From a virus, in the IMG/VR virus record IMGVR_UViG_3300010331_000047, positions 1 to 21,231 of that record: a DNA stretch of 21,231 nt; one strand, written 5' to 3'. Both the position numbers and the translations under genes were made by a program. Position 1 is the first letter of the stretch, and every line of letters begins with the position of its first letter. Below the pieces are notes generated by a model, which was given only the letters and a program-made list of their open reading frames with translations, searched no databases and was not told the DNA's origin. This document shows positions 2,426 to 16,947 of this stretch, one piece after another.

Positions 2426-4495
2426 TTGGCGGAGACATATATACCAATAGATCAAGCAGCTGAACTTGAAGGTGTTGAATACCATACACTTTATAGAAAA
2501 ATTCAAAGAGGAAACAATTTCGACATTAAAAAAATATCTTCAAATACTGGTGGTAATGAGAGAATTTTAGTTGCGCTAACTTCCCTCTCTACAAAGGCTA
2601 TACGTACCTATCAAGCTAAACAGGATTTACAGATAAAAACTATGATTTCTGATACAGAATCCAGTGATGGTAATGAAGATGAGGCATGGTATTTAGGAGT
2701 AGATCTAAGTAAATACATGAAAAAGCATAGTGAGAGTTTCTATAAAAGCGTAGAGCTGGCAAATAGGATTAAGGAATATCTAGAATATAAGGGTGATGAC
2801 AAGACCCAATATACCGAGGACTTTGCAAAGAAGCTAGGAATGAGTGGCAGAAACTTTAGAAGGAAGATTGAAAAATATCTTGAAGGTTGTGCCTGGGCTC
2901 TTGAAATGAGTGAACATGATGGCAAAAACTATGAATTCTATAGAATTCTTGCAATTTGTCAGAGACCAAGAGAAAAGAAGCATATTGCCCTAACGGATGA
3001 AATGAAAGCAGTCATTGAAAACATTTGGTTTGATAAGTCCTTTGCAGCAAACCACAGGAAGCAAACAAAGCTTTATATAATATTTCAGCAGATTGCTGAA
3101 GAAAGAGGATGGGTGCTGACTCCAAGCTATCCCACAGTAAATAGATATATCAATGAGGTTTCTGGAAAATATGGAAATGAGCGCTTCCTAGCAGATCAAG
3201 GGCTTAGAGAATTCAAGCGCTCCATGATGATCAAGCGCAGGAGAAATACTGGAATGCTTCAGGTCATGGAACTGGTACAGGGTGATGCTCATACATTTGA
3301 TTGTTGGGTGAAAATTACTAGAGGAAATGGTCATGTAACAGCTATTAAGCCATATTTAGTAGCGCTAATCGATACAAGAAGCAGATGCCTGGTTGGATGG
3401 GGAATATGTGAGGTTCCAAATTCAGACGTTATTAAGCAAGTATTGATGCACATGATGTATCAAAAGAAAAATAATCCTATTGATGGTGTCCCCAGATTTA
3501 TATTGATTGATAACGGTAAGGACTGGACTTCTCAGACTCTTACGGGCAGAAACAGAAAAGACAGAGTGAGTCTGGATGGTGAGATAAAGGGATTCTTCAA
3601 ATCTATAGGTATTGAGGATGACAAACGAAGCCTACCTTATCAAGCTTGGACAAAGGGCGAGATTGAAAGGTTCTTCGGAGAAGTATGTAACTCATTTACT
3701 TCAAGCTTTGATTCTTATACTGGGACATTAACTGGTTCAAAGACCATTAATAAAATCAAAAAGGATATCAAGGGGATGCTTGAACGGGATGAATTGTTAT
3801 CCATAGAAGAGTTCGCTGCAAAGTTTGACAAGTGGCTTAACGATGAATACCACACAAAGATTCACAAAGGTTTAAAAGAGCAAAAGGAACCAAATCCGAG
3901 ACCAATTAATGTATTTATGGAAGCAGAAAGATACTTGAAGGCTGCTCCACCTATGGAGTTCACTAGAGTACAGCTTATGAACTATGAGGAACGGACTGTA
4001 TACGCTGTGGGAATTAAAATGAATAATGATTACTACCATAATGAAACCCTTGGCAGATATATAGGCAAAAAGGTAGATGTGAGATTTAGTTATAACGAGC
4101 CTGATGTGCTGCATGTGTACGATAAGGAAGGAAATAAGGTATGTGAAGCAATACGTGAAATTGGTCTTAACCCATTAGCTTTGAGAGATGATCCAGACCT
4201 TATTGAACACATGAAAGTTCAGAAGAGGCAGATTCGTACAACAAAAGATAACCTTACTTATTTACAGACACCATATGAGCAGCGTGGAAAAGCACTGGAG
4301 AATAACATAAGTGTTGCGAAGGCAGATAGGAAAGTTATTTTACCTGAGCTGACAAATGAAGCTCCAAAGGTTGTAAGTATTCCAGAGGATAAACAGTATA
4401 GAGCTGAGAATAAGGCAAGAAAGAACAAAGAAAGTACAAACTGTAATGAGTTTTTTGACAAACAATTTGAGAAGGCTATGAGCAAATTAGGATAA
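2426..4495 (+). CDS. Mu-type DDE transposase (MuA family)
   Basis: The 689-residue protein catalyses strand transfer for phage integration and replication by transposition. The start is TTG, with AGGAGG at 2411-2416; no upstream in-frame start exists. The N-terminus (about 1-65) resembles the Mu DNA-binding winged helix. The RNase H-like core holds the catalytic triad: Asp287 (GDAHTFD), Asp362 (LIDNGKDW) and Glu414 (KGEIERFFGEV). The spacings are close to those of MuA. Residues about 541-575 match the Mu transposase C-terminal beta-barrel domain (GRYIGKKVDVRF, then CEAIREIG). The very C-terminus is lysine-rich, where MuA interacts with MuB. It is followed without a gap by the ATPase gene. Confidence 0.95.
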   Translation: MAETYIPIDQAAELEGVEYHTLYRKIQRGNNFDIKKISSNTGGNERILVALTSLSTKAIRTYQAKQDLQIKTMISDTESSDGNEDEAWYLGVDLSKYMKKHSESFYKSVELANRIKEYLEYKGDDKTQYTEDFAKKLGMSGRNFRRKIEKYLEGCAWALEMSEHDGKNYEFYRILAICQRPREKKHIALTDEMKAVIENIWFDKSFAANHRKQTKLYIIFQQIAEERGWVLTPSYPTVNRYINEVSGKYGNERFLADQGLREFKRSMMIKRRRNTGMLQVMELVQGDAHTFDCWVKITRGNGHVTAIKPYLVALIDTRSRCLVGWGICEVPNSDVIKQVLMHMMYQKKNNPIDGVPRFILIDNGKDWTSQTLTGRNRKDRVSLDGEIKGFFKSIGIEDDKRSLPYQAWTKGEIERFFGEVCNSFTSSFDSYTGTLTGSKTINKIKKDIKGMLERDELLSIEEFAAKFDKWLNDEYHTKIHKGLKEQKEPNPRPINVFMEAERYLKAAPPMEFTRVQLMNYEERTVYAVGIKMNNDYYHNETLGRYIGKKVDVRFSYNEPDVLHVYDKEGNKVCEAIREIGLNPLALRDDPDLIEHMKVQKRQIRTTKDNLTYLQTPYEQRGKALENNISVAKADRKVILPELTNEAPKVVSIPEDKQYRAENKARKNKESTNCNEFFDKQFEKAMSKLG

Positions 4496-4509
4496 TGGAG
4501 GTAAGAAAA

Positions 4510-5490
4510 ATGGAATCAGCAAAAGTTATTAACTTTAGGAATGATGTAGCTGCAATAGCTCGTGAATTTATGGATAAGGGCAATATTACTATGGAGGATT
4601 TTTCAAAGAAGATACACTTTTCTAGAACGGCACTGACACAATATATTTCAGGAAAGTATGGTTCAGACCCAAAGAATATTGAAAAAGCAATTATGGATTA
4701 TTTGGTTCAGGAAGGAGCAGTTGTAACACAAACAGAAAAACCGACAGTTAAAACTTATGCTTCTAAGCCTGAGTTCTTCGCTTCAAGAGATGCAAAAAAC
4801 ATAGTTGCAATATGCCAGTCATGCCAGGAATACAAGGGACTAGGAATTATAGCAGGAAAATCAGGCTATGGAAAGACCTTCACCTTAAAACATTATTCAA
4901 AGATGGATAGAGTCTGCTACATATATTGTGACGATACCATGGGATGCAGAGATTTGGTTGAAGCAATAGAAGATGCTCTTGGAATTCCACAAAAATATGG
5001 TTCTATCACAAAACGTGTCAAAAGTATCAAGAAATTCTTTAGTGTGAATAAGGGATATCTGCTGATTATTGATGAAGCTGACAAACTCCTGAATAAATAT
5101 ACCCAAAAGAAGATGGAAATTCTCAGAACCATATATGATCCTACAGAAAAGGACTCAGATGAATCAGAAGTTGGTCTAGTTATCGCAGGGGAACCAAAGT
5201 TGGAATCAATGATCAAGTCTTATCTTCCAAGGTTTGCAAACAGGGCAGATTTTAACATAAGGCTTGAAGGCTTGACTAAAAAAGAGGTTGAGAAATATCT
5301 TGAAGGCTATAACTTAACCGGGGATGCTCTGAATGAAATGATTTCAAGGGCCACTAACAATCAGACTGGTTGTTTCAGAGTTCTGAACAAAACCCTTAGA
5401 AATATTGTGAGGTTGCAGCCTGATCAAGACCAAGATGTTGAAATTACATTGGATGTAATAAATAAGGCCAGCGGAATGATGATGCTGTAG
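4510..5490 (+). CDS. Transposition target-capture AAA+ ATPase (MuB family)
   Basis: This 326-residue ATPase partners the transposase and selects target DNA. An N-terminal HTH (about 25-65, with FSKKIHFSRTALTQYI) precedes the AAA+ domain, the same order as in MuB. Walker A is GKSGYGKT (Lys122, Thr123) and Walker B is LLIIDEAD (Asp188, Glu189). An ATG at 4495 is five codons upstream and overlaps the transposase stop, but its own GGAGG (4497-4501) is the ribosome binding site for the ATG at 4510, so I chose the latter. The tight coupling to the transposase supports the pairing. Confidence 0.93.
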   Translation: MESAKVINFRNDVAAIAREFMDKGNITMEDFSKKIHFSRTALTQYISGKYGSDPKNIEKAIMDYLVQEGAVVTQTEKPTVKTYASKPEFFASRDAKNIVAICQSCQEYKGLGIIAGKSGYGKTFTLKHYSKMDRVCYIYCDDTMGCRDLVEAIEDALGIPQKYGSITKRVKSIKKFFSVNKGYLLIIDEADKLLNKYTQKKMEILRTIYDPTEKDSDESEVGLVIAGEPKLESMIKSYLPRFANRADFNIRLEGLTKKEVEKYLEGYNLTGDALNEMISRATNNQTGCFRVLNKTLRNIVRLQPDQDQDVEITLDVINKASGMMML

Positions 5491-5506: not shown

Positions 5507-5911
5507 ATGCAATTAACATTTATAGATACTGTCAAGTCAGCCATTAATGGCTTTGAGGCTAGCCTTTTCGATAAAGGCACTGCCATAAAAATGATAGAAG
5601 ATTCAGCGCAAGTCAAATGCACAGATTGCAGTGAGAAAAGCACAATAGATTTTAACAATTGCATTATGGATTTGAAACATGCTATGGATGATGAAATAGA
5701 AACAGGTTTATTTGATAAGCTGAGCAATCCTTTGGATGAAATGAGCATTGGCGAGGCGGTTAGACTTTATAACAGTAAAAGTATGCAGCTTCCTTGCAGA
5801 GGTGGGCATATAATTGGGATTTTCCATGAAACAGATAAAATCAAATCAAACTTAACGGAGGTCAGGTATTATGAGCAAAATCAAGAATATTGTGTACAGA
5901 AATTGGGATGA
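5507..5911 (+). CDS. Unknown early protein (134 aa)
   Basis: The ATG at 5507 has GAAGGAGA just upstream; a TTG six bases earlier is less likely. The protein has a CTDC pair near residue 40 and other scattered cysteines, but no complete zinc-binding pattern. I see no membrane segment. The 3' end overlaps the Gam gene by 41 bases in another frame, showing tight packing. The family is not recognised. Its place between MuB and Gam is where Mu-like phages carry variable early genes. Confidence 0.65.
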   Translation: MQLTFIDTVKSAINGFEASLFDKGTAIKMIEDSAQVKCTDCSEKSTIDFNNCIMDLKHAMDDEIETGLFDKLSNPLDEMSIGEAVRLYNSKSMQLPCRGGHIIGIFHETDKIKSNLTEVRYYEQNQEYCVQKLG

Positions 5912-6356
5912 AGTTAACCAGGCATTAAAAGAAGTTGGAGATATTGACCGCAATGTGGTGCATATCGAGGCCGACATGAACAAAAAGATAAATGAGATTA
6001 AGGCTGATGCCGAGAGGGATGCTTCTTCACTTCTTGAGAGAAAAAAGGTTCTGGAAACGAATATACAACAATTTACCGAGAGCTGCAGCGATGAGTTCAG
6101 TAGTTCAAAGTCAAAGAAGTTCATGTATGGTACTGTTGGCTTTAGAAAAACATCTAGTATCATCACCAGAAACGTTAAAGCAATACTGGAGGCTCTCAAG
6201 CAGAACCGCATGACGGATTGTATCCTTGTTACCGAAAAGCTGAATAAGGAAGAGCTTGAAAAGTACGATGATAAAGCTCTTGGAAAAATTGGAGCCAAGA
6301 GAAAGGTTGAGGATAAATTCTTCTATGAGATAAGTGAAGAAAGGGTGGATAGCTGA
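5871..6356 (+). CDS. Host-nuclease inhibitor Gam family protein
   Basis: This 161-residue protein belongs to the Mu Gam family, which binds DNA ends and protects them from exonucleases and is related to the Ku core fold. A long coiled coil covers about residues 28-72. It is followed by the family's characteristic stretch SKKFMYGTVGFRK (81-93), then a C-terminal helical part. The start is ATG with GGAGG at 5858-5862, inside the end of the previous gene. It stops at TGA, overlapping the ATG of the next small gene by one base. Confidence 0.88.
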   Translation: MSKIKNIVYRNWDEVNQALKEVGDIDRNVVHIEADMNKKINEIKADAERDASSLLERKKVLETNIQQFTESCSDEFSSSKSKKFMYGTVGFRKTSSIITRNVKAILEALKQNRMTDCILVTEKLNKEELEKYDDKALGKIGAKRKVEDKFFYEISEERVDS

Positions 6357-6490
6357 TGGCAAGCAAAAAAGATAAATCTAGGAAAGCAAATGCTAGACAT
6401 CAGGCTGAGCAGGCACGAAGAGATTCAGAAAAGATGATTGGTAGATTGATGCGCTCTCAGAGAATGCGGTATGGAGGTATAAAGGAATGA
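6356..6490 (+). CDS. Small basic protein (44 aa)
   Basis: The start ATG shares its A with the Gam stop codon, and the stop overlaps the next start, so translation is coupled on both sides. The peptide is rich in lysine, arginine and glutamine (KKDKSRKANARHQAEQARR) and probably forms a basic helix that could bind nucleic acid. No family was recognised. It is supported mainly by its exact fit between two coupled genes. Confidence 0.6.
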   Translation: MASKKDKSRKANARHQAEQARRDSEKMIGRLMRSQRMRYGGIKE

Positions 6491-6687
6491 CGAAGGCAAG
6501 CGAGCAAAGGCAGCTAAAAACCATTTTACCCAGTGAGGAAATAGCTGTTAATGTCATAAAGAAAGTCACTGGCAAAGAGTTGGGTAATGTTCTTGGTGGT
6601 ATTGAGGGTTTTACTAAATGTTTCAATCCTGATGATGAATACATGGTTGAGATTAAAGTTCAGAAAAGCTTAAAGCAGGAAGCTTAA
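6487..6687 (+). CDS. Unknown early protein (66 aa)
   Basis: It begins at an ATGA overlap with the preceding small gene and uses GGAGG (6475-6479) as ribosome binding site. The protein has a central glycine-rich turn (GKELGNVLGGIEGF) and a short beta-like C-terminus. There is no signal peptide and no known motif. A hairpin lies directly downstream. Confidence 0.6.
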   Translation: MTKASEQRQLKTILPSEEIAVNVIKKVTGKELGNVLGGIEGFTKCFNPDDEYMVEIKVQKSLKQEA

Positions 6688-8304: not shown

Positions 8305-8317
8305 GGTGGTGAGGTCA

Positions 8318-8653
8318 TTGAATAGCAACACGAATTTGGCTCATATTATTGAAGAAGACCTTCCTGGGGAGTATGATCTACTTGTTGCTGAAATCGGTAT
8401 AGAAAAGACTTTAAAAGTTGCTAAGATGTTCGGAGGAAGCAGAGTATACTTCCACAAGTATGATACTGTTGAAAAGCCTTTAAGAAATAGGAAAATCAGA
8501 GAGGAATTCAATGGCTATAACTATTCTGAACTTGCCAGGAAGTATAATTTAACTGAGGTATGGATTAGAGAAATTTGTGAAGATATTGTTGAAAAGAAGA
8601 GAGGCAAATCAATAGAAGGACAAATAAATATCTTTGATTGTCAAAGTACTTAA
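8318..8653 (+). CDS. Mor-family transcription activator
   Basis: The 111-residue protein has the Mor/C family layout: an N-terminal dimerisation part (HIIEEDLPGEYDLLVAEIG; then a GGSRVYFHK strand) and a C-terminal HTH (FNGYNYSELARKYNLTEVWI). In Mu, Mor ends the early operon and activates middle transcription; here it also closes the early block. I chose the TTG at 8318 (AAAGGTGG 7-8 bases before it) rather than the GTG at 8306, which would overlap its own ribosome binding site. A terminator follows. Confidence 0.85.
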   Translation: MNSNTNLAHIIEEDLPGEYDLLVAEIGIEKTLKVAKMFGGSRVYFHKYDTVEKPLRNRKIREEFNGYNYSELARKYNLTEVWIREICEDIVEKKRGKSIEGQINIFDCQST

Positions 8654-8691: not shown

Positions 8692-8722
8692 AAAATCCAA
8701 GTATAACAAATACTTGGATTTT
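8692..8722 (+). terminator. Intrinsic terminator closing the early operon
   Basis: AAAATCCAAGTA (8692-8703) pairs perfectly with TACTTGGATTTT (8711-8722) around a 7-base loop. It runs into a T-rich tract (TTTTTTATTTT, 8719-8729). It lies 38 bases after the mor stop codon and about 30 bases before the first late gene. Confidence 0.9.
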
Positions 8723-9138: not shown

Positions 9139-9426
9139 ATGGAAAACTTGAAAATTATTGAGTCCAAGAGACTTAGAGCTCTGATTATTAAAGCGATGTA
9201 TGATGCCTATCCAGGAGCATTGCTGAAAGGAACACTTAAAAGGGCATTTGCAGGAAACTACACTGGAATTGAGGTAGGAAGACAACTTGAATATCTTAAG
9301 GGAAAAGGCTACATAGAAATTGACAATGAAGACGAACCTGATAATGACAATGCTATGGTTAAAGTAACCTCCAAAGGCATAGACCTGATGGAAGAAACAA
9401 TTGAAGATCCAGGAGTTGGATTCTAA
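9139..9426 (+). CDS. Winged-helix phage protein (95 aa)
   Basis: The protein has an N-terminal helical part and then a winged-helix-like pattern (LEYLKGKGYIEIDNE, followed by the strand MVKVTSKGIDLMEE), as in small DNA-binding proteins. It lies between the DUF2730-like gene and the small terminase, where Mu carries gp26. The stop codon overlaps the next start (TAATG). It may help DNA packaging or regulation; the function is inferred from fold and position only. Confidence 0.65.
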   Translation: MENLKIIESKRLRALIIKAMYDAYPGALLKGTLKRAFAGNYTGIEVGRQLEYLKGKGYIEIDNEDEPDNDNAMVKVTSKGIDLMEETIEDPGVGF

Positions 9427-10019
9427 TGGGAGCTGAAAGAGAAAGAACTAGGGTTTGTAGTAAGGTTGACGAGCTTCCAGATGATATAAGGCCCAAGCTT
9501 GATGAGATGCTTGCCAGAACTGGCGAGAACTACCTTAAATATCAAGAGATTGCTGATGAAATCAGTAAAATGGGTTATCCAATAAGCAAGTCATCTATTG
9601 GAAGATATGCATTAAAAAATAATTCGGTTGTTAAGCGTTTGAATGAAGCTCGAAAAAGAACAGAAATGCTATTTGATGCAGTAAAAGACAATCAAGACAT
9701 ACAAGGTACAGAAATTGCAACAGCAATGTTTGTAGATCAGCTAGTACAAAAGATGGCTACAGCAGAAGATGATATTGAAAAGATGCCTATTGAAAAAGCA
9801 GCTCAGCTTATGATTGCAATACAAAGAAGCGCAGTTTACAAAGAAAAGTTCAAGCTTCAATTCAATAAGGGGTATAAAAAAGCCCTTGCAGAGGTTAAAG
9901 AAGAATTCATAAAAGAACTCAAACAAAATGAGCCTGAGCTACTTGAGAGAATAATTGAAGTTGCCAACAGGCTTGAGAAGAAAGTAGTAATGAAAGAAAC
10001 AGGTGATTCTGTTGCGTGA
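9426..10019 (+). CDS. Small terminase subunit, DUF3486 (Mu gp27-like)
   Basis: The 197-residue protein has the DUF3486 pattern. An N-terminal HTH region (LPDDIRPKLDEMLAR, then YQEIADEI and ISKSSIGRYALKNN) recognises DNA, followed by a long helical oligomerisation part. In Mu the equivalent gp27 directly precedes the large terminase. Here a NusG-like gene is inserted between the two subunits. The 3' end overlaps that gene by 8 bases. Confidence 0.82.
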   Translation: MGAERERTRVCSKVDELPDDIRPKLDEMLARTGENYLKYQEIADEISKMGYPISKSSIGRYALKNNSVVKRLNEARKRTEMLFDAVKDNQDIQGTEIATAMFVDQLVQKMATAEDDIEKMPIEKAAQLMIAIQRSAVYKEKFKLQFNKGYKKALAEVKEEFIKELKQNEPELLERIIEVANRLEKKVVMKETGDSVA

Positions 10020-10521
10020 ATGGTATGTATTGCAAGTTAGAACTGGCGAAGAGGCTGCTATCAGGGATTACATAAAAAGAAAATTACCAGGTATTAATGC
10101 TCTGGCACCACAGCGTGAAATGAAAGAACGCAAGGATGGAAAATGGAAAATCAGAATCAGAACATTGTTCAAAGGTTATGTCTTTGTAAACTGTAATATG
10201 GCTGTCGAAGAGTATTACATGCTTAATAACATTACAGGTGTGATAAGTATTTTAAAAGGTGCAGCGTCTTCCCCAACACCAGTTCCAGAAGAAGAAATGT
10301 GCTTTGTTTTAAGGCTAACAAAAGATGATGATTTAGTTGGAATAACAGATATAGTACTTGTGGGTGATAAGGTCAAGGTCGCATCTGGAGTGTTAGAAGG
10401 ATATGAAGGTCAAATTATTAAGGTAGACAAAAGGCATTTCAGGGCAAAGGTTAAGTTCTCTTTGATGGGACAGGAAAAGGTTATTGAGTTAGGAATAAAG
10501 TTAGTTGAAAAAATAGGTTGA
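10012..10521 (+). CDS. NusG paralog of LoaP type (probable late antiterminator)
   Basis: The 169-residue protein has an NGN domain (about 2-95; starts EWYVLQVRTGEE, contains LFKGYVFVNCNM) and a C-terminal KOW domain (about 116-166; VGDKVKVASGVLEGYEGQII). The NGN sequence is closest, in my reading, to the LoaP branch of specialised NusG proteins. LoaP proteins bind RNA polymerase and an RNA hairpin to let transcription pass terminators in long operons. The TTG at 10012 follows AGGTGAT; GTG at 10003 is the alternative. It lies between the terminase subunits and is followed by a structured gap. Confidence 0.85.
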   Translation: MREWYVLQVRTGEEAAIRDYIKRKLPGINALAPQREMKERKDGKWKIRIRTLFKGYVFVNCNMAVEEYYMLNNITGVISILKGAASSPTPVPEEEMCFVLRLTKDDDLVGITDIVLVGDKVKVASGVLEGYEGQIIKVDKRHFRAKVKFSLMGQEKVIELGIKLVEKIG

Positions 10522-10588
10522 AGCTTTTATGTGTTTGATTCGTCGCAGATAAAGGCTCAACGCATTTATATGGCAGATCAATAAAGCT
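10522..10588 (+). other. Possible RNA fold after the NusG-like gene (first element)
   Basis: AGCTTT (10522-10527) can pair with AAAGCT (10583-10588), and TTGAT (10535-10539) with ATCAA (10577-10581). They enclose about 37 bases without a clear inner stem. It is weaker than the following hairpin but lies in the same gene-free stretch. Confidence 0.35.
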
Positions 10589-10590
10589 AG

Positions 10591-10644
10591 GTTGAAAAAC
10601 TTGGATGGCGAAGCTCGCCAATCTATAAAAAAAGTTTTCTCAAC
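10591..10644 (+). promoter_or_regulatory. Two-part RNA hairpin, candidate recognition element for the NusG-like protein
   Basis: The outer stem pairs GTTGA (10591-10595) with TCAAC (10640-10644) and AAAACTT (10596-10602) with AAGTTTT (10632-10638), with C10639 bulged. An inner stem pairs TGGCGA (10606-10611) with TCGCCA (10615-10620) around an AGC loop. An asymmetric internal loop separates them. No T-run follows, so it is not an ordinary terminator. The location immediately after a LoaP-like gene and before the long late operon suggests a binding element. Confidence 0.6.
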
Positions 10645-10694
10645 TATTTTGTCAAAAAAGAGTTCTTTCTTACTCTCTTGTGAGGTGATACATA

Positions 10695-12215
10695 TTGAGC
10701 ATTGTTAAAGAAATTGCTGGGGTTGAAGCTTCAGAAGAAAAAAGAAAATATTATCTTCCATCTCAAAGTTTTTGGGAATACTGCAAGATGCGTTACCCAA
10801 AGCACTTCAAAGAAAGTAGACCCTACCAAAAAAAGATTGCAGACAGCTTTCAAGCTCTCTATGAAAAAAGAATTATAAGATTTAAGCCTAATGAGCCATG
10901 GCAGATAGTAGACTCAACAGAAGGTTTAACTGAATATGAATTTTGTAGAAAGATGAAGCTAAATCTCCCACCTAGACACTATAAGTCTTTTACCGCAACA
11001 TTATTCTCTCAATGGGTTTTCGGTAAAAATAATGAGAATCGCATAATTACAACATCATATAACGAAACTCTATCAGGCCGTTTTGGTAAAGCTGTAAGAG
11101 ATGGTATAGATGAAACAAAGATAGATAATAAAAGAGTAATTTTTAACGACATTTTCCCTGATACTCATATCAAACAAGGTGATGCAGCTAATCAAATATG
11201 GGCATTGGAAGGGCAGTTTTTCAATTACCTCGCCACCTCGTTTAATGGCACTGTTACTGGTGTTGGTTGTAACATTGGTATTATAGATGACCAGATAAAA
11301 ACAGCAGCCGAAGCTCACAATGAAAATCTCTTAGAAAACCATTGGAGTTGGTACACTGATACATTTCTTTCAAGACTTGAGGAAGGTGCTATTCAAATAA
11401 TTATAATGACTCGTTGGTCTAATAATGATATTTGTGGCAGGCTTGAGAAAGAAGAAGAAGCTAATGAATGGTACGAGCTTCGGATGAAGGCTTGCATAAA
11501 TGAAGAATCTCAGGAAATGCTCTGCGAGGAGGTATTTTCATTTGCTTCCTATAAGTCAAAAAAGAAGCTTATGTCAGCTGAGATTTTTGATGCTAACTAT
11601 CAGCAGGAGCCAGTGGATGCAAAGGGTAAGCTCTACTCTACTTTTAAAACCTATACCGATTTGCCAAGGGATGAAAAAGGAAATTTGATATATGAGAAAA
11701 TAATAGCTTATGGTGATACTGCAGATGAAGGAGCTGATAAGCTTTGCACCTTGGCAGCAGTTATGTGGAAAGGTGAAGGCTGGATAATTGATATCTATTA
11801 CTCTGGTGATGGTATGGAAGTGACTGAACCTGCAACAGCGGAAATGCTAGTGAAAAACAATGTCAACCTTGCAAAAATCGAAAGTAATAACGGTGGTAGA
11901 GGGTTTGCCAGAAACGTCGAAAGACTTATATGGGAAAAGTTCAAGACCAAGAAAGTAAAAATAGATTGGTTTCACCAGTCAGCAAACAAGATATCAAGGA
12001 TACTTTCAAACAGTACATTTGTCATGGAGCATTTATACTTCCCTTGGAATTGGCGCGACAGATGGCCTGAGTATTACAAGGATATGAATAGCTTCCAGCG
12101 TGAAGGCAAGAACAAACACGATGATGCTCCTGATGCTACTACAGGAATTGGTGAAATGATTCAAGGAAATATGAAAAAGGCGAAAAAGCCTCGGAAAAAG
12201 CCTAAAGGATGGTGA
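10695..12215 (+). CDS. Large terminase subunit (DNA packaging ATPase and nuclease, Mu gp28-like)
   Basis: The 506-residue packaging motor has an ATPase half with a variant Walker A, PPRHYKS (Lys97), and Walker B, IGIIDDQ (Asp198, Asp199). The nuclease half has acidic residues Asp341 (AYGDTADEG) and Asp476, Asp477 and Asp480 (HDDAPDA). The C-terminus is very basic. The start is TTG, six bases after GAGGTGAT (10682-10689). Tyrosine replaces the usual glycine in the Walker A position before lysine. It is followed by the portal gene after 5 bases. Confidence 0.92.
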   Translation: MSIVKEIAGVEASEEKRKYYLPSQSFWEYCKMRYPKHFKESRPYQKKIADSFQALYEKRIIRFKPNEPWQIVDSTEGLTEYEFCRKMKLNLPPRHYKSFTATLFSQWVFGKNNENRIITTSYNETLSGRFGKAVRDGIDETKIDNKRVIFNDIFPDTHIKQGDAANQIWALEGQFFNYLATSFNGTVTGVGCNIGIIDDQIKTAAEAHNENLLENHWSWYTDTFLSRLEEGAIQIIIMTRWSNNDICGRLEKEEEANEWYELRMKACINEESQEMLCEEVFSFASYKSKKKLMSAEIFDANYQQEPVDAKGKLYSTFKTYTDLPRDEKGNLIYEKIIAYGDTADEGADKLCTLAAVMWKGEGWIIDIYYSGDGMEVTEPATAEMLVKNNVNLAKIESNNGGRGFARNVERLIWEKFKTKKVKIDWFHQSANKISRILSNSTFVMEHLYFPWNWRDRWPEYYKDMNSFQREGKNKHDDAPDATTGIGEMIQGNMKKAKKPRKKPKGW

Positions 12216-16689: not shown

Positions 16690-16938
16690 GTGTATACATT
16701 ACAGAAATTAAATGTTGTTAAGATAGTCGATACTGAGCTTAAAAAGGATGAGCTTATTTCCAAAGGCTTCACCTTAGTACAAGCTCAGGAGAAAGCTTCA
16801 AGTAATGAAAAACCTCTGAATAAAATGAATCTTGAGGAGCTGAAGGAGTATACAGCTCTGAAAGAAATAGACATAACAGGATTGACAAAGAAAGATGAAA
16901 TCATGGCAAAAATAAAGGAGATTGAGCAGGGTAAATAA
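16690..16938 (+). CDS. Small head protein with a Rho-N/HeH-like domain (82 aa)
   Basis: The start is GTG behind AAGGAGGT, directly after the capsid gene. The C-terminal part (LNKMNLEELKEYTALKEIDITGLTKKDEI, about 43-77) resembles the small Rho N-terminal/HeH helical domain that often occurs in short phage proteins after the capsid gene. These are thought to bind nucleic acid or act in head completion. The stop codon lies inside the loop of a hairpin. Confidence 0.65.
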   Translation: MYTLQKLNVVKIVDTELKKDELISKGFTLVQAQEKASSNEKPLNKMNLEELKEYTALKEIDITGLTKKDEIMAKIKEIEQGK

Positions 16939-16947
16939 ACCCTGCTC
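16924..16947 (+). terminator. Terminator-like hairpin after the capsid block
   Basis: GAGCAGGGT (16924-16932) pairs perfectly with ACCCTGCTC (16939-16947) around a 6-base loop that contains the stop codon. A mixed pyrimidine tract (CTCTTCTATTTT) follows, so termination may be partial. Confidence 0.55.

Follow-up and report, generated by a model that had tools for sequence, protein, structure and literature searches.

The stretch of DNA analyzed here (the window, 21,231 nucleotides) represents a Mu-like phage of Bacillota, based on its gene content, which includes a MuA-type transposase, a MuB-like ATPase and a Gam-like gene, along with an SPP1-type portal and head and tail genes (Table 1). 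The product of the Mor-family gene is presumed to be the activator of the operon that starts behind it, and a strong terminator-like hairpin with a T-run (8692-8722) lies directly 3' of this gene and divides it from the late operon. The NusG paralog that follows the small terminase gene is a LoaP, as its score exceeds the curated NF033641 cut-off of 125 bits, and it is presumed to act in trans as an antiterminator; among solved chains, 8f5g is nearest to it (113 bits). Between the LoaP gene and the large terminase gene (terL) there are 173 bases with no open reading frame of at least 50 amino acids (10522-10694). The preliminary description of the window had reported this gene-free stretch behind the NusG paralog and remarked on its site ahead of the packaging genes, and our analyses bear out both observations.

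Table 1. Features of the window and the evidence for their assignment.
Feature	Position	Strand	Evidence or remark
MuA-type transposase	2426-4495		
MuB-like ATPase	4495-5490		
Gam-like gene	5871-6356		
Mor-family activator	8306..8653	+	PF08765, 57 bits
Mu Gp27-like small terminase, precedes loaP	9426..10019	+	PF11985, 102 bits
LoaP (NusG paralog)	10003..10521	+	NF033641 antiterm_LoaP, 172.2 bits
Hairpin 1, presumed LoaP recognition hairpin	10522..10557	+	Covariation, RF03052 and R2 matches
Linker, RAGATH-28 type, weakly conserved	10558..10586	+	Rfam alignment, alignment A3
Local stem 2, CUAGGUU GAAA AACUUGG	10587..10604	+	Rfam stem 2
Conserved second module GGAUGGCGAAGCUCGCC	10603..10619	+	A3; strict pattern
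Two-tier hairpin of the preliminary description, alternative fold rivalling stem 2	10590..10645	+	z -4.4
Large terminase subunit, first gene past the RNA element	10695..12215	+	phrog_30251, 517 bits
Terminator-like hairpin at a gene boundary within the late operon	16924..16947	+	Pattern scan only; tail not strongly U-rich

Within the gene-free stretch the preliminary description had drawn a two-tier hairpin without a T-run behind it, proposed as the recognition RNA of LoaP, and had mentioned a second possible fold upstream of it. The long hairpin does fold as drawn (-19.2 kcal/mol, z = -4.4, equalled by none of 200 shuffles) and no T-run follows it. No intrinsic terminator was found in 10522-10694, as no U-run stands behind the hairpins and the terminator scan lists none there. 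The closest relatives, L003, L005, L006, L110, and L111, do not share the outer stem (10591-10602 with 10632-10644); in L003 a similar 3' strand is kept and the 5' strand differs, so that the pairing is lost. As a conserved element the long hairpin was therefore ruled out, and only its middle, GGAUGGCGAAGC...GCC, belongs to the conserved unit, which spans 10522 to about 10619. The upstream fold at 10522-10557 is also part of the minimum-energy structure, and it is the fold that evolution has conserved. We consider it very improbable that the long hairpin itself is the recognition element, based on the lack of the outer stem in the nearest relatives, the absence of a UNCG cap from its middle, which holds the conserved second module, and the location of the covariation in hairpin 1; its great stability and the similar outer stems that enclose the second module in ten or so other loci (L036, L039, L041, L042, L046, L047, L057, L086, L089, and L103) are the points in its favor.

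Hairpin 1 consists of a stem with a UU bulge and a GA-UNCG-UC cap (UUGAUUCGUC at 10535-10544, with UUCG at 10539-10542), and it ends about 138 bases ahead of terL, so that a UNCG-type hairpin precedes the presumed target genes. Its pairing was assessed at seven pairs in 36 distinct sequences picked by cap and second module, independently of stem pairing. Paired cells made up 89%, as opposed to 44-59% with slid partners, and 53 cells had changed on both sides, as opposed to at most 24 in the control. The covariation score was 0.50 versus at most 0.18, and none of 500 shuffles reached 0.50; since kinship among the sequences inflates covariation counts, the slid control deserves most weight. Compensating changes in homologous phages, the point on which the preliminary description had staked its proposal, are therefore present in this region. 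A further double change affects the innermost pair in L022-L030, where GU-UNCG-GC replaces GA-UNCG-UC. The nearest distinct relative, L003 (a Bacillota MAG whose LoaP is 68% identical), shares the leader with the window (AGCUUUUACGUGCUUGAUUCGUCGCAGGUAAAAGCU versus AGCUUUUAUGUGUUUGAUUCGUCGCAGAUAAAGGCU), and a stem pair has changed from U-A to C-G. In the phages L005 and L006 (LoaP 43-47% identical, related terminase) the leader reads AACCUGGUAUGC-UGAUCCGUC-GCAUAUCAGGUU and a version with a CUCG cap. A short leader ORF from the ATG of GGATGGCG (MAKLANL) was dropped because other loci have GTG or GGG at that place and the ribosome site is not clear.

The search from homologs that the preliminary description had suggested gave a match: a model built without the window and L003 (R2) found 10523-10622 as the sole convincing match in the window (39.9 bits, rough E-value 2e-8). 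A second, weak match at 6434-6533 (E-value 0.05) was taken as chance, as it lies in the ORF-dense early region and has no second module. The proposal of a LoaP recognition RNA before the packaging genes is thus strongly supported by covariation and by the association with LoaP described below, although the wrong hairpin had been chosen; very probably the recognition element resides mainly at 10522-10557, and not in the long hairpin.

The second module has the consensus GGRUGGCGNAGC and is directly preceded by local stem 2, the summed stem score of which was 191 among 36 homologs, as opposed to a highest value of 133 in 300 shuffled sets. A candidate hairpin 3 within the module (GGRUG-GC-GNA-GC-YRCCC, with a GNA triloop) has 85% of its cells paired; it is merely suggestive because its letters are largely invariant and one column is A-C in most sequences. 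In the window the fold containing stem 2 falls short of the long outer fold by approximately 3 kcal/mol in stability, which we count against our preferred reading of the element; stem 2 is transcribed earlier, so a kinetic switch between the two predicted folds is possible.

A likeness that the preliminary description had missed is that to RAGATH-28 (RF03052), a catalogued orphan RNA. The order of parts is the same in both, a UUGAUNCGUC hairpin, a linker, a second hairpin and a GAUGGCGAAGC tail, and they differ in that stem 1 closes with U-G and GCA in the subtype of the window and with G-C and CCC in RAGATH-28. A search of 161 bases with RF03052 gave 35.3 bits (E-value 5e-5; match 10529-10614). 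The Rfam scan of the window at the gathering score of 45.3 gave no match, so that RF03052 appears only by E-value; for this reason we name the element RAGATH-28-like and count the sub-threshold score against our preferred reading. The gathering score is passed by nine of 17 loci (L036, L038, L039, L042, L046, L048, L049, L050, and L057), all directly after LoaP in phages, a position homologous to that in the window. The Rfam description line for RF03052 gives no function, and within the open PMC subset RAGATH-28 is named in no paper, although it may be reported elsewhere.

The neighborhood of this RNA is nearly exclusively that of LoaP. Both modules recur directly 3' of loaP among 49 LoaP-like loci of viral contigs, and strict patterns found the UNCG module in 29, GGRUGGCGNAGC in 35 and both in 27 of 58 distinct viral and bacterial LoaP-like loci. 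A DNA pattern that takes no account of proteins (TTGATNCGTCCN{45,75}GGRTGGCGAAGC, and a GC variant) was run over 2.9 million viral contigs and matched 29 loci, every one of which has an upstream LoaP-like gene in the same orientation, its end lying -1 to 264 bases (median 27) from the element; as the pattern was derived from LoaP neighborhoods, RAGATH-28 elsewhere could be missed. These 29 loci include several near-identical phages, one being a near-copy of the window phage, and their LoaPs form 17 clusters at 70% identity, eight at 50% and four at 40%. The Rfam model, built independently of the present work, matched four places in three of 398 bacterial genomes, all downstream of LoaP-like genes and with two tandem copies in one genome; the filters of this search were strict and weak copies may escape it, as did those of G221, which only our own model matched.

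RAGATH RNAs owe their name to their association with genes near ribozymes. This naming could suggest that RAGATH-28 is a separate RNA which only accompanies loaP, for instance a ribozyme or a put-like antiterminator that works without protein, as could the fact that the second module is commoner than the strict UNCG cap (35 versus 29 of 58). We regard this as extremely unlikely in view of the LoaP-like genes at 29 of 29 blind matches and four of four genome matches, and of a UNCG cap that suits the known ligand class of LoaP.

Where LoaP is missing, the element was not found: the RNA model detected nothing in L007-L011, which have related terminases but no LoaP, and in L010 (related terminase and Gp27) gp27 runs directly into terL. 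The element was also absent from most of the cellular LoaP neighborhoods searched, which we count against our preferred reading. A scan for UNCG hairpins around 15 bacterial LoaP genes gave few matches, with possible hairpins directly after loaP in L122, 1.9 kb downstream in L121 and beside loaP in L120, and zero matches with a stricter stem cut-off. L121 (~10364, reverse-complement coordinates) and L122 (~8520) have GGCGUUYCGGCGCCC in common, about 1.9 kb downstream of loaP in the former and directly behind it in the latter, and in both it precedes a similar gene with a chain-length-regulator-like N-terminus; this sequence is possibly a bacterial form of the LoaP hairpin. Two other arrangements were observed. 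In L080 (G290) the reverse strand carries two tandem RAGATH-28-like copies, at 1493-1591 and 1327-1424, behind a LoaP-like gene, the second with a degenerate cap, UUGAGUAUUC, and the genes downstream are SAF/CpaB-type-like and not terminase. In L123 (G223) a RAGATH-28-like sequence is situated upstream of loaP (8522-8623, minus strand), not downstream.

The usual place of the element is before terL. Among 20 loci chosen for diversity, 18 had a large terminase as their first large gene downstream, with best matches to at least three PHROG groups (phrog_38; phrog_30251; phrog_2/3717); the exceptions, which we count against our preferred reading, were L017 (tail sheath) and L080 (an unassigned, SAF-like gene). 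The two sister phages, that of the window and L003, have the leader, LoaP, portal and head genes in common, and behind the same leader their large terminases belong to different groups (phrog_30251-type in the window, phrog_38-type at 8691-10409 in L003), so that an exchange of the terminase seems to have taken place. The location of the element at the start of the late operon, shared by phages with unrelated backbones, points to a role in controlling late genes. In many loci (L018, L036-L047, L057, L086-L092, and L103-L111), although not in the window, the interval separating the element from terL contains arrays of CCGTTTAAAA-type repeats at a spacing of about 10-11 or 21 bases, situated 30-110 bases past the second module (72 matches versus about six expected in shuffles, overlapping matches being counted). 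Their layout resembles a phased array for protein binding and may represent a small-terminase (pac/cos) site.

The position at the loaP stop codon, which the element overlaps in L090, L092, L108, and L110, together with the leader-like placement upstream of loaP in G223, is what would be expected of an element that serves the loaP message itself, for autoregulation or at its 3' end (an attenuator, a stabilizer or a LoaP feedback site) instead of a loading site for the late operon. We consider this unlikely, as terL is next in nearly all loci, from different terminase groups, and the hairpins already known for LoaP serve to load antitermination (PMC12691694); a feedback role would also be compatible with loading.

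The LoaP of Bacillus velezensis binds and needs a UNCG-type hairpin and acts by antagonizing NusA, and its E40, R41, and I143 mutants do not recognize the hairpin and lose antibiotic production (PMC12691694). E42-R43 of the window LoaP match the RNA-binding E40/R41, an assignment by sequence context because the B. velezensis protein is outside our alignment. Arg at the R41 position is kept in nearly all LoaPs that bear the RNA element, and Glu at the E40 position is kept in the classical clade, the divergent clade mostly having I, L, V, or T instead, so that a conserved Arg and mostly a Glu occur as in B. velezensis LoaP (PMC12691694). The viral paralogs without the RNA element (L052-L060) have A/L and then T/A at these positions.

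Based on these data we consider it likely that LoaP and the RAGATH-28-like RNA form a cassette through which antitermination gates the late operons of phages; LoaP binding, pausing, antitermination and timing are the parts of this mechanism that we infer. The Mor-type activator would probably start the late transcript near 8700, and the small late genes, TerS and LoaP would be produced first. LoaP would then bind the UNCG hairpin at 10522-10557 in the nascent RNA and load onto the polymerase, the RNA thereby recruiting in cis the LoaP encoded upstream to the polymerase that is copying this operon. The second module (stem 2 and GGRUGGCGNAGC) may help loading as a pause or docking site, a role proposed because the order of UNCG hairpin, second structured site and genes parallels that of hairpin, pause and terminator in the dfn leader (PMC12691694). 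The loaded polymerase would ignore NusA-stimulated terminators across the terminase, head and tail genes, and the hairpin at 16924..16947 is a possible target. The pattern scan of the window found terminator-like hairpins in a total near chance, with few clear intrinsic terminators downstream of the element, which we count against antitermination.

As in the dfn/mln systems of B. velezensis (PMC12691694), a LoaP-family protein is combined here with a UNCG-type hairpin ahead of a long operon, the likeness being one of UNCG class. The phage system differs in its target, a late operon instead of an antibiotic cluster, in the location of the element 3' of loaP within the same operon, and in the additional conserved stem 2 and GGRUGGCGNAGC, which would be a new component, being absent from the available text description of dfn (PMC12691694).

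For the RAGATH-28 family as a whole, the occurrence of the element beside LoaP genes in many unrelated phages, together with its likeness to RAGATH-28, suggests that the family is probably a late-gene switch, opening the genes for building the virus particle. We see an even chance that RAGATH-28 is, more specifically, a two-part antitermination RNA, in which the UNCG hairpin loads LoaP and the elongation complex is paused or contacted by the second module; as a portable cassette, loaP and this RNA would gate late operons across many unrelated phages. There is a precedent for explaining an orphan RAGATH RNA through its neighbor, although with an unrelated function, in RAGATH-18, whose constant neighbor gene is TnpB and which guides this nuclease (PMC11061315).

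In the Q and N/nut systems of phage lambda, a phage-coded factor modifies the polymerase just ahead of late or delayed-early genes. The principle of a polymerase-modifying phage factor would be the same here, whereas the protein family and the site differ, a NusG paralog and a UNCG RNA taking their place. If our interpretation is true, the portable loaP-RNA cassette would be a Gram-positive counterpart of lambda Q, LoaP would control the late genes of phages as well as biosynthetic operons of bacteria, and dozens of naturally occurring pairs of protein and RNA would be at hand for studying how LoaP reads RNA. The orphan family RAGATH-28 would thereby gain a concrete, testable function, and Mu-like and other Bacillota phages may switch on their late genes by this route.
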